Shown piece after piece: positions 31,955-34,912 of a stretch of 64,000 nucleotides of DNA. The first letter of the stretch is position 1. Each line of letters opens with the position of its first letter. The DNA lies in contig NZ_CP049919.1 of assembly GCF_015624425.1 (NCBI RefSeq), forward strand, positions 2,790,001-2,854,000. The letters are read 5' to 3'. The stretch is from Roseateles sp. DAIF2 (GTDB taxonomy: Bacteria > Pseudomonadota > Gammaproteobacteria > Burkholderiales > Burkholderiaceae_C). Below the pieces are notes generated by a model. The model worked only from the letters and a program-made list of their open reading frames with translations. It did no database searches and had not been told where the DNA came from. A program made the translations under genes and the position numbers.

Positions 31955-31960
31955 ATGCCC

Positions 31961-33271
31961 ATGACCCCCTCTGACGTCAAAGCCACCCTGTCGTTCACGG
32001 ACGGCAGCCCCAGCATGGACCTGCCCATCTACAAGGGCACGGTGGGTCCGGATGTGATCGACATCCGCAAGCTCTACGCTCAGACGGGCAAGTTCACCTA
32101 CGACCCGGGCTTCCTGTCGACCGCCTCCTGCAACTCGACCATCACCTACATCGATGGCGACAAGGGCGAGCTGCTGTATCGCGGCTACCCGATCGAGCAA
32201 CTGGCCGTCAACTGCGACTACCTTGAGACCTGCTACCTGCTGCTGTACGGAGAGCTGCCGAACGCCTCGCAGAAGGAAGAGTTCACCGCCCGCGTGACCA
32301 ACCACACGATGGTCAACGAGCAGATGCAGTTTTTCCTGCGCGGTTTCCGTCGCGACGCGCACCCGATGGCCGTGATGACCGGCCTGGTCGGCGCGATGTC
32401 GGCCTTCTATCACGACAGCACCGACATCAATAACCCCGAGCACCGCGAGATCGCCGCGATCCGCCTGATCGCGAAGATGCCGACGCTCGTGGCGATGGCC
32501 TACAAGTACACCATCGGCCAGCCTTACATCTACCCGAAGAACGATCTCTCGTACGCCGGCAACTTCATGCGCATGATGTTCGCCACGCCCTGCGAGGACT
32601 ACAAGCCCAACGACGTGCTGGTGCGCGCGATGGACCGCATCTTCACCCTGCACGCCGATCACGAGCAGAACGCCTCGACCTCGACCGTGCGCCTGTGCGG
32701 CTCGTCGGGCACCAACCCGTTCGCGGCGATCGCAGCCGGCGTGGCCTGCCTGTGGGGCCCGGCCCATGGTGGCGCCAACGAGGCGGCGCTGAACATGCTC
32801 GGCGACATCCAGAAGCAGGGCGGCGTGGCCAAGATCGGCGAGTTCATCAAGCAGGTCAAGGACAAGAACAGCAACGTCAAGCTGATGGGCTTCGGCCACC
32901 GGGTCTACAAGAACTACGACCCGCGCGCCAAGCTGATGCGCGAGACCTGCCACGAGGTGCTGAACGAGCTGGGCCTGCACAACGACCCGATGTTCAAGCT
33001 GGCGATGGAGCTGGAGAAGATCGCGCTGGAAGACGAATACTTCGTCGCCCGCAAGCTCTACCCGAACGTCGACTTCTACTCCGGCATCGTGCAGCGCGCC
33101 ATCGGCATCCCGGTGCCGCTGTTCACCGCGATCTTCGCGCTGGCCCGCACGGTCGGCTGGATTGCCCAGCTCAACGAGATGATCGGCGACCCCGAGTACA
33201 AGATCGGCCGTCCGCGCCAGCTCTTCGTCGGCGCCACCTCGCGCGACGTCAAGCCGATCGCCCAGCGCTGA
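31961..33271 (+). CDS. gltA: Citrate synthase (type II)
   Basis: A 436-residue protein, matching the hexameric citrate synthase of Gram-negative bacteria. Catalytic blocks are [11 protein letters not shown], the histidine in [15 protein letters not shown] and [15 protein letters not shown] with the substrate-binding arginine. It condenses acetyl-CoA and oxaloacetate into citrate. Cotranscribed with the sdh genes or transcribed from its own promoter in the short gap before it. A strong terminator follows. Confidence 0.97.
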
Positions 33272-33327: not shown

Positions 33328-33366
33328 AACCCCGCCAGCCTTCTTTGGCTCGCGGGGTTTTTCTTT
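33328..33366 (+). terminator. Intrinsic terminator after gltA
   Basis: AACCCCGCCAGCC pairs with GGCTCGCGGGGTT (one mismatch in 13) around TTCTTT, followed by a T-rich tract. It ends the sdh-gltA transcript about 60 bases past the stop. Confidence 0.9.
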
Positions 33367-33414
33367 GCTTCCTTGCGCCTTGATTGGTGATGTCACGATG
33401 GCAGAGGCCTGGGC

Positions 33415-33506
33415 GCAGGAGGGAGGGCAGGCCTGCTGCTACGTGTCCCCCGGCCGCTTCGCGGCCTCCTCCTTGACCTCCGCATCAGGCCTACCCTCCC
33501 TCCTGC
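33415..33506 (-). repeat. Stem-loop element A with conserved core
   Basis: Outer arms at 33415-33435 and 33486-33506 match at 20 of 21 positions. Between them lies a 37-base core at 33443-33479 with its own hairpin (GGCCGC, TTC, GCGGCC). The core recurs, inverted, inside element B. The single arm mismatch is C/A here, which becomes a G-U pair if RNA is made from the minus strand. Either a dispersed palindromic repeat of REP kind or a structured RNA. Confidence 0.6.
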
Positions 33507-33552
33507 TTGGTGCTGCGTTGGGCTTTCTTCGCGAACCACGTGCGGTGGATTG

Positions 33553-33648
33553 GCCGGGATGCGGGTATGCGCAATTGCGCAGGTTAAGGAGGAGGGCCGC
33601 AAAGCGGCCCGGGGGACACGGAGCAATTGCGCATGCCCGCGTCCCGGC
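33553..33648 (+). repeat. Stem-loop element B with conserved core
   Basis: Outer arms at 33553-33580 and 33621-33648 match at 25 of 28 positions; two of the three mismatches are T/G, which would be U-G pairs in plus-strand RNA. The core 33581-33619 is the inverted counterpart of the core of element A, with the hairpin GGGCCGC, AAA, GCGGCCC and an AAGGAGGA run like a Shine-Dalgarno sequence. The outer stems of A and B share no sequence, so pairing is kept while bases change. Confidence 0.6.
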
Positions 33649-33755
33649 GCAGCCCGGCCCTGCAGAAGGGGGCATTAAGACGCGCACGACTTTGCTCTGC
33701 CTCGGAACGAGTGTTGGCTGAAGCTAGGGTTAATGCCGGGCGATCTGTCCCCTCT

Positions 33756-33818: not shown

Positions 33819-33834
33819 TGGCAAACGTTTGCCA
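33819..33834. promoter_or_regulatory. LacI-family operator
   Basis: TGGCAAACGTTTGCCA is a perfect 16-base palindrome with central CG, the classical form for LacI/PurR-type regulators. It lies 74 bases before the LacI gene and just downstream of a possible TATGCT minus-ten element at 33805-33810, so bound protein would block initiation. Autorepression of the salvage operon is the natural reading. Confidence 0.82.
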
Positions 33835-33907: not shown

Positions 33908-34912
33908 GTGAGCACGATCAAGGATGTTGCGGCCCTGGCCGGGGTGTCATTCACCACTGTTTCCCATGTCCTGAACGACACCCGCCCGGTCAGCGCCGAT
34001 GCGCGTCGCCGGGTGCTGGCCGCGGTCGAGGAGATCGGCTACCTGCCCAGCGCGGTGGCGCGCTCGCTGCGCAAGAGCGAGACCAAGATCGTCGGCGTGC
34101 TGGTGCCCAACGTGAACAACCCCTTCTTCGCCGAGCTGGTGGTCGGGGTCGAGGAATGCTGCCGGCTGGCCGGCTACTCGGTGTTCCTTTGCAACTCGGA
34201 CAACGACCCGAAGCGCCAGCAGCAGTACATGCGCACCCTGCTGGAAAAGCGCATCGACGGCCTGCTGCTGTCCTCCGCCGGCGATGCCGAGGCGCTGGCG
34301 CGCATCTTCAAGCTGGCCACCGTGCCCTTGGTGACGGTTGACCGGTTGGTGCCCGGCGCGCGCGCCGACCGCGTCAGCGTCAACAACCTGGACGGCGCTC
34401 ACAAGGCGGTCAAGCATCTGCTCGACCTGGGGCACCGCCGCATCGCCTGCGTCAGCGGCCCGAGCGAGTTCGAGGTGACCAGCGAGCGGGTCGAGGGCTG
34501 GCGCCGCGCCCAGCTGGAGCGCGGGCTGCAACCCGACGAGGGCCTGCTGGTCGAGAGCGACTTCAGCAGCGCCGGCGGCTACGAGGCGCTGCGCCAGCTG
34601 CTGCGCCGACGCCCCGACATCACCGCGGTGTTCGCCAGCAATGACCTGATGGCCCTGGGCGCGCTGCGTGCCGCGGCCGAGGCCGGCCTGAACGTGCCGC
34701 GCCAGTTCTCGGTGGTCGGCTTCGACGATGTGGAGCTGAGCGGCTATGTCTACCCGGCACTGACCACGGTCGGCTGCTCGATCAAGGAGCTCGGGCGCGA
34801 GGCCGCGCGGGTGCTGATCGACCGCATCGACAACCCCGGCGCGCCGCTGAAGGACGTGCAGCTGACGCCGCGCCTGGTGGTGCGCGAAAGCACCGCCGCA
34901 CCGGTGCGCTGA
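33908..34912 (+). CDS. LacI-family regulator, ribose/nucleoside salvage type
   Basis: A 334-residue protein. Residues 1-56 are the LacI helix-turn-helix and hinge (TIKDVAALAGVSFTTVSHVLN), and the rest is a periplasmic-binding-like sensor domain (VGVLVPNVNNPFFAEL). The start is GTG 33908. It is the first gene before ribokinase, nucleoside hydrolase and an adenosine-type deaminase. Relatives such as RbsR answer to ribose or ribose phosphate, and a nucleoside is equally possible. The palindrome upstream fits its own site. Confidence 0.9.
   Translation: MSTIKDVAALAGVSFTTVSHVLNDTRPVSADARRRVLAAVEEIGYLPSAVARSLRKSETKIVGVLVPNVNNPFFAELVVGVEECCRLAGYSVFLCNSDNDPKRQQQYMRTLLEKRIDGLLLSSAGDAEALARIFKLATVPLVTVDRLVPGARADRVSVNNLDGAHKAVKHLLDLGHRRIACVSGPSEFEVTSERVEGWRRAQLERGLQPDEGLLVESDFSSAGGYEALRQLLRRRPDITAVFASNDLMALGALRAAAEAGLNVPRQFSVVGFDDVELSGYVYPALTTVGCSIKELGREAARVLIDRIDNPGAPLKDVQLTPRLVVRESTAAPVR

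Follow-up and report, generated by a model that had tools for sequence, protein, structure and literature searches.

A Divergent Pair of Hairpins Between gltA and a LacI-Family Gene

Downstream of the citrate synthase gene of Roseateles sp. DAIF2, two divergent stem-loops enclose the same core in unrelated outer stems, which raises the question of what kind of element keeps its pairing while its stem letters change; the first-pass annotation had considered a structured RNA (an sRNA or a cis element), a mobile palindrome that inserts into hairpins, or a dispersed repeat of the core. Within the window, the 64,000-nucleotide stretch of this genome analyzed here, element A is a stem-loop of approximately 92 nt at 33415..33506 with the minus strand as its sense strand, and element B is a stem-loop of approximately 96 nt at 33553..33648 with the plus strand as its sense strand; both are recognized by their inverted arms, by their folding z-scores, and by covariance-model matches of 78.2 bits for A (genome position C1:2823414-2823507:-) and 72.4 bits for B. 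The arms of A (33415-33439/33482-33506; 25 nt) and of B (33553-33578/33623-33648; 26 nt) are in each case 92% complementary. The core of A (33443..33479, minus strand) consists of AGGTCAAGGAGGAG, an apical hairpin and GGGGGACACG, and that of B (33581..33619, plus strand) of AGGTTAAGGAGGAG, an apical hairpin and GGGGGACACG; the core pattern used for genome scans matches at 33465-33479 and at 33581-33595, respectively. An inverted-repeat search recovered both elements, their arms, the match of the two cores in inverted orientation, and the intervening 46-bp spacer (33507..33552) where the first-pass annotation had placed them. Exact matches of the 15-base word AGGTYAAGGAGGAGG in the window are confined to these two cores; with up to three mismatches, the word has 10 window matches vs. 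1.74 expected.

With the AAGGAGGAGG strand folded as RNA, B reaches -72.4 kcal/mol (z -9.95) and A -68.4 kcal/mol (z -8.17), compared to -60.7 (B) and -59.9 kcal/mol (A) for the opposite strands (z -7.84 and -7.45); both elements fold better on the strand that reads AAGGAGGAGG, and none of 200 shuffles folded as well as A or B on either strand. Of the four stem mismatches, two in B and one in A are G-T on the AAGGAGGAGG strand and become G-U pairs in the RNA, which agrees with the original count of three; the fourth, in A, is A-G.

The pair and its flanks form an approximate repeat unit of the host genome (33367..33701, outer limits drawn by eye), and blastn finds window positions 33351-33681 or 33373-33681 similar to other copies in the same genome. 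The unit is located between gltA (citrate synthase; 31955..33271, plus strand; PF00285, E 4e-136) and the gene of a LacI-family regulator (33908..34912, plus strand; PF00356/PF13377), in a position where it is absent in the three relatives compared. To its immediate left, 3′ of gltA, lies a terminator-like inverted repeat (33328..33359, plus strand); a T-tract follows this repeat when read from the sequence, and the terminator scan did not call it. The sites that the scan did call are 33505-33523, in the spacer, and 33738-33750. An intrinsic terminator function of A and B themselves was rejected, since no U-tract directly follows either sense stem. Upstream of the LacI-family gene, at 33820-33833, the palindrome GGCAAACGTTTGCC is the likely operator of this gene; it is also present in the three relatives compared, one base off in G214.

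Known RNA families do not account for the pair: the Rfam check proposed at the outset gave no match at gathering score in the whole window, and for 10 related loci searched with E-value cut-offs all matches were below gathering score. Scores were far below this threshold, with several microRNA models placed on the hairpins, and known Rfam RNAs were therefore rejected.

Conserved Core and Freely Varying Stems

A scan with the core pattern produced a collection of at least 119 loci, one of which (L076) is plainly a chance match; as these copies were chosen by their core letters, the invariance of the core among them is partly built in. Copies of the core devoid of an outer inverted repeat would have spoken against a selected structure, and they are few: although the outer stems are unrelated in sequence, 15 or more of 20 outer positions pair in 148 of 152 distinct copies (mean 18.4 in these), and a paired stem is missing in four. 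Each copy is one hairpin with an outer stem of approximately 25 bp, in which the sequence is free and the pairing is kept. Toward the tip, this stem gives way to a small internal loop and then to a 3-bp helix in which an A is bulged; a second internal loop, rich in purines (NAAGGAG / GGGGG), leads to the apical hairpin. The inner pair is G-C in 133 of the 148 copies (AGGT/CACG) and A-T in 15 (AAGT/CATG), and never mixed. One class of copies has G-N-A facing G-N′-A in its small internal loop, where N and N′ mostly complement each other, a pattern suggestive of sheared G-A pairs.

The proposal that the structure is under selection is borne out by covariation. In 39 aligned copies (from 54 of equal length), 27 of 33 pairs have changes in both partners, with a covariation score of 0.715 vs. 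at most 0.177 for slid partners. A covariance model (R1) was built from these 39 copies, which had been chosen by core letters; remeasured on 80 model matches (79 distinct), covariation is 0.756 vs. at most 0.195 for slid partners, in an alignment that was fitted to the model's structure and in which many matches are recent duplicates within one genome (G187). The 42 loci behind this second measurement were found by R1 or taken by place, except for three (L256-L258) that came from the pattern scan and contribute one of the 80 matches.

In an extended form, two further hairpins with conserved joints replace the short GGGGGA-CACG link; the joints read GGGGGANNGAGCYCGGA...GCCTRGCGA, and both extra hairpins covary in an alignment of eight of the nine distinct copies. 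Eight of these copies are from the host genome (L002, L005, L008, L011, L018, L022, L027, L029) and one is from a Roseateles metagenome-assembled genome (L137); a strict extended pattern matched only one of 399 genomes, the host itself, nine times. The extended form is possibly the ancestral or complete version of the element. Separately, two loci from different genomes (L033, 239-343, and L138, near 356) have the same extra TGGACTTGGGGTTTTGCC just 5′ of the core.

Divergent Pairing, Gene Context, and Strand Constraint

The divergent order of A and B recurs across the family. Mapping was based on 94 of the 119 named loci and on 149 of their 154 matches (five partial, weak or odd ones were dropped); it yielded 50 neighbor pairs within 700 bp, 49 of them divergent, with a spacing of 40-63 bp in 38 of these 49, and another 50 copies with no neighbor closer than 700 bp in the DNA covered. 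One genome (G538) has a -,-,+ cluster. The A-B spacer resembles those of other units in the host genome and not those of other families; by eye, no sequence was seen to be shared between spacers (<150 bp) of different families. Stems similar to those of A and B do occur in Roseateles and Pelomonas loci. Members of a close pair did not reach 80% stem identity in any of 36 measurable pairs, which is weak evidence for avoidance of like stems, since random comparisons between loci reach this level in only 1.7% of cases. One pair with near-identical stems was seen, at L050, where the members are 480 bp apart; this pair and the other wide pair (L090, gap 586) were checked for an enclosed gene, and L050 has no clear gene.

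Among 68 units between predicted genes (called by a GC3 heuristic, with 18 units that overlap a predicted frame excluded), 44 have codirectional, 21 convergent, and three divergent neighbor genes; at least one of the three (L092) is a miscall, since it sits at the pccB-pccA junction discussed below. This distribution is what one would expect of an element that depends on transcription and stays clear of promoters.

The sense strand, originally deduced from the G-U pairs of A and B, is recovered across the family: stem positions 7-26 of the 148 copies contain 312 G-T vs. 25 A-C mismatches on the AAGGAGGAGG strand, and the outer 20 pairs of the 79 distinct model matches contain 118 vs. 4. Both members of a divergent pair show this bias (50 vs. 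7 and 61 vs. 2 in 23 pairs). Sorted by gene context, with 9 of 66 members omitted for want of an anchor, the counts are 44 vs. 2 for 20 members in sense to codirectional genes, 38 vs. 5 for 21 antisense members, and 35 vs. 1 for 16 members between convergent genes; the G-T excess persists whatever the gene direction, and each member is therefore constrained on its own strand. The constrained strand could act as RNA or as single-stranded DNA; both are possible.

Selection in Place at the pccB-pccA Junction

In 14 genomes, a copy of the element lies between pccB and pccA, antisense to the operon. The two gene families were confirmed on one example each; both genes were identified in 12 of the 14 loci and only pccA in L092 and L104, and L030, with another carboxylase arrangement, was excluded from this set. 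A divergent partner match is present in 11 of the 14 loci, and in the model search the antisense member outscores the sense member. Across the 14-genome alignment, 94.8% of cells pair and 16 of 33 pairs have changed on both sides, a level of paired change that none of 500 shuffles reached; the antisense member has 29 G-T vs. 3 A-C mismatches (three members without an anchor dropped). The stems at this junction resemble each other across species, while in 340R_metabat_138 (L034, L112, L132, L133), the one genome checked, by eye, the other copies have unlike stems; taken together, this looks like vertical descent with compensatory change. The structure is selected in place at pccB-pccA.

These observations separate the two parts of the earlier suggestion that a mobile palindrome inserts into hairpins. 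Mobility stands, as described in the next section; a hairpin target does not, because stem and core travel together and orthologous stems at one locus co-evolve through compensatory mutations. It is the element, and not its target, that supplies the stems, and insertion of the core into a target hairpin was accordingly rejected.

Mobility and Distribution

Copies of the element have moved, both as a repeat unit in the host genome and in-frame inside a gene. That the core is a dispersed repeat, one of the initial suggestions, is evident in the host genome, where the core pattern has 29 matches and the reversed control pattern none; the covariance model finds at least 33. The likeness of host units extends beyond their hairpins, and their ends read GGCTCTTTG...CAAAGAGCC or near forms: both ends are exact in two of 13 units (L019, L027), near forms occur in several others, and the ends of the window unit resemble a decayed version. 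Several host units adjoin terminators, and two measured units are 353 and 422 bp long; in a check for target-site duplications, some have similar A/T-tract flanks on both sides, though of low complexity, and the empty sites of relatives are too diverged for comparison. Repeated units also occur in G187, with flanks unlike those of the host units. By eye, several of the 23 units in G187 (loci L236-L255) occupy stop/start junctions; they close, before the next ATG, with GGAGCAACTGANATG-like words that resemble ribosome-binding sites, as if the unit supplied one to the next gene.

Within genes, two insertions lie in-frame in a radical-SAM/B12 gene (L090:4445-6442); both are missing from all seven homologs that could be parsed out of 12 fetched, and the match to this gene breaks at the second insert in all 12 matching genomes of the 60 searched. 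Reading frames also run through an element copy in L121:2522-4291 (Ada/AlkA) and in L103:4372-5868 (MutL). Such in-frame elements add about 30 residues, e.g., AQVKEE...GDTEQ in L121 and L103.

Across genomes the family has a patchy presence, and all genome counts are lower bounds because a limited number of candidates was scored per search. The model matched in 11 of 13 genomes searched with it, with 108 matches in G187, 19 in G171, 26 and 3 in two congeners, and 11, 8, 4, 3, 2, and 1 in six others (the single match being weak, E 0.007); G208 and G093 had none. Under a stricter filter, matches were found in 7 of 200 genomes of an order-level sample and in 12 of 398 genomes of a phylum-level draw, all 12 in the same class, with seven in the family of the host and five elsewhere in the class; none of 41 genomes of family f4 matched, an empty answer that by itself shows nothing. 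The carriers among the matches listed (at least 119 stretches) include Rhodoferax, Hydrogenophaga, Polaromonas, Pelomonas, Roseateles, Variovorax, and Methylibium, and also two Pseudoxanthomonas; the family is found mainly in betaproteobacteria. The small genome G472 (1.5 Mb, family f56), outside the usual families, has four weaker model matches that could be a distant relative. A blastn search of plasmids returned short pieces from 18 records (best E 0.09), and two scans of viral contigs gave three and zero loci, with a model match in one of the three (L258).

Comparison With Known Repeats

REP sequences are described as dispersed, mostly intergenic short palindromes in head-to-head or tail-to-tail pairs, with spacers mostly of 20-100 bp and often with unlike stems; most REP families prefer such heterodimers, which are suggested to escape SbcCD (PMC3733652). 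The same preference and escape would explain the unrelated stems around one core in the present family, which resembles REP/BIME and REPIN arrangements in being dispersed and in forming inverted dimers with short spacers and unlike stems. The GTAG- or CGTC-tagged REPs described there are 20-40 bp long with a four-base tag at the foot, whereas the present element has approximately 90 nt, a conserved part at its tip, and free stems. A REP/RAYT system was rejected: Y1_Tnp (PF01797) was not found in the copy-rich G187 (108 matches) and G171 (19 matches), which are drafts of about 30 contigs and 99-100% complete.

The Beta-proteobacterial repeat element BRE (Hot et al., 2011) is reported as approximately 90 bp long, G+C rich, and mostly intergenic with some copies within coding sequence, in betaproteobacteria that include Polaromonas and Rhodoferax; it is described as tandem, and that account proposes neither a structure nor inverted pairing (PMC3110155), in contrast to the divergent order of 49 of 50 neighbor pairs here. 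Size, G+C content, taxa and intragenic occurrence fit; compared by description only, the two may or may not be the same repeat. ERIC, BOX, RUP, and Correia/NEMIS are named alongside BRE (PMC3110155). Burkholderiales-1 is listed in the literature without an Rfam entry (PMC2864571). The own-genome copies further resemble MITEs in their common terminal inverted repeats, decayed in the window copy. The repeats of the ERIC, BOX, RUP, and Correia/NEMIS type are non-autonomous, structured, and partly transcribed intergenic elements that conserve sequence along the whole repeat, unlike the present element, where only core letters and pairing are conserved. Rickettsia palindromic elements are hairpin repeats inserted in-frame inside genes; the likeness to the intragenic copies described above is one of description and not of sequence-level comparison. 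A literature search, conducted largely by topic and not by core letters, found no published description of the core.

Possible Functions

The first reading of the locus is partly supported: A and B are, with high confidence, a divergent pair from a family of approximately 90-nt palindromic repeats that is dispersed and has been mobile. For its function, we tentatively favor, at somewhat less than even confidence, a REP/BIME-like composite that acts as a two-way cis RNA. The strand that reads AAGGAGGAGG would be active in single-stranded form, and the inversion of the two copies would mean that a transcript running either way contains one of them in sense. Once the unit has inserted 3′ of a gene or between cistrons, this sense hairpin could act on the transcript by end protection, by processing, or by binding of a host factor to the purine loop. 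Unlike stems would be advantageous, as identical 90-bp arms approximately 45 bp apart would form a palindrome ill tolerated by replication and by SbcCD-type nucleases; amplification would depend on a putative enzyme supplied in trans. The main argument against this reading is that antisense members are as constrained on their own strand as sense members, which a pure mRNA role does not predict unless the antisense RNA matters.

That both strands are constrained, whichever way the genes run, would fit a selfish single-stranded DNA element, an unlikely alternative but one of some weight, in which an HUH-like transposase would recognize the AAGGAGGAGG DNA hairpin at both unit ends and the host would gain nothing, by analogy with the action of RAYT on REP pairs. 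A G-T mismatch is milder than A-C in DNA as well, and the repeated units in the host genome and in G187 (108 matches), together with the in-frame insertions within a gene, are what such an element would produce. Against it, Y1_Tnp (PF01797) was not found in G187 and G171 and is present in G208 and G093, which gave no element matches, and inspection by eye of 10 regions, based on the first 70 residues of the neighboring proteins, revealed no recognizable transposase beside the copies. Compensatory evolution at a fixed locus is also unexpected of a dead insertion.

It is rather improbable that the family represents a functional structured RNA of a new class, one that is produced from both strands of one site and binds a protein or ligand or is catalytic; if so, it would be an inverted two-copy cassette that moves in some lineages and has been fixed by selection in others, and the extended form with its two more covarying hairpins would be the fuller version of the RNA.

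Also improbable is a pair of sRNAs of approximately 90 nt each, transcribed outward from the spacer, with a role in trans or as sponges for proteins: CsrA or another GGA-binding regulator, or else 30S subunits, could be titrated by the AAGGAGGA loop, and AAGGAGG matches the Shine-Dalgarno word. Constraint on the sense strand of both members and conserved loops on free stems, as in many structured RNAs, agree with this possibility. Against it, spacers of different families have no visible common sequence, a promoter scan found no sigma-70-like sites around the window pair, and neither sense stem is followed by a T-tract. Divergent promoters in the spacer are unsupported on the first two of these grounds.

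An ordinary own-genome MITE, with hairpins that would serve only for transposase binding and a wider family that would be a patchwork with a short motif, is very doubtful. The shared GGCTCTTTG...CAAAGAGCC ends or near forms of the host units and the similar A/T-tract flanks of some of them speak for it; against it, the same core, loops and covarying stems recur in other genera, the G187 units have other flanks, and an orthologous copy is common to 14 genomes.

Intergenic palindromic repeats are usually viewed as selfish DNA in which the sequence is conserved. What this family conserves is a fold on a definite strand of each member, restored by compensatory mutations at one fixed gene junction even as copies elsewhere move, and its simple cassette makes it possible to test whether such repeats act as RNA or as single-stranded DNA. 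With the covariance model, this family, which Rfam does not list, can be annotated across the Burkholderiales and into Pseudoxanthomonas.
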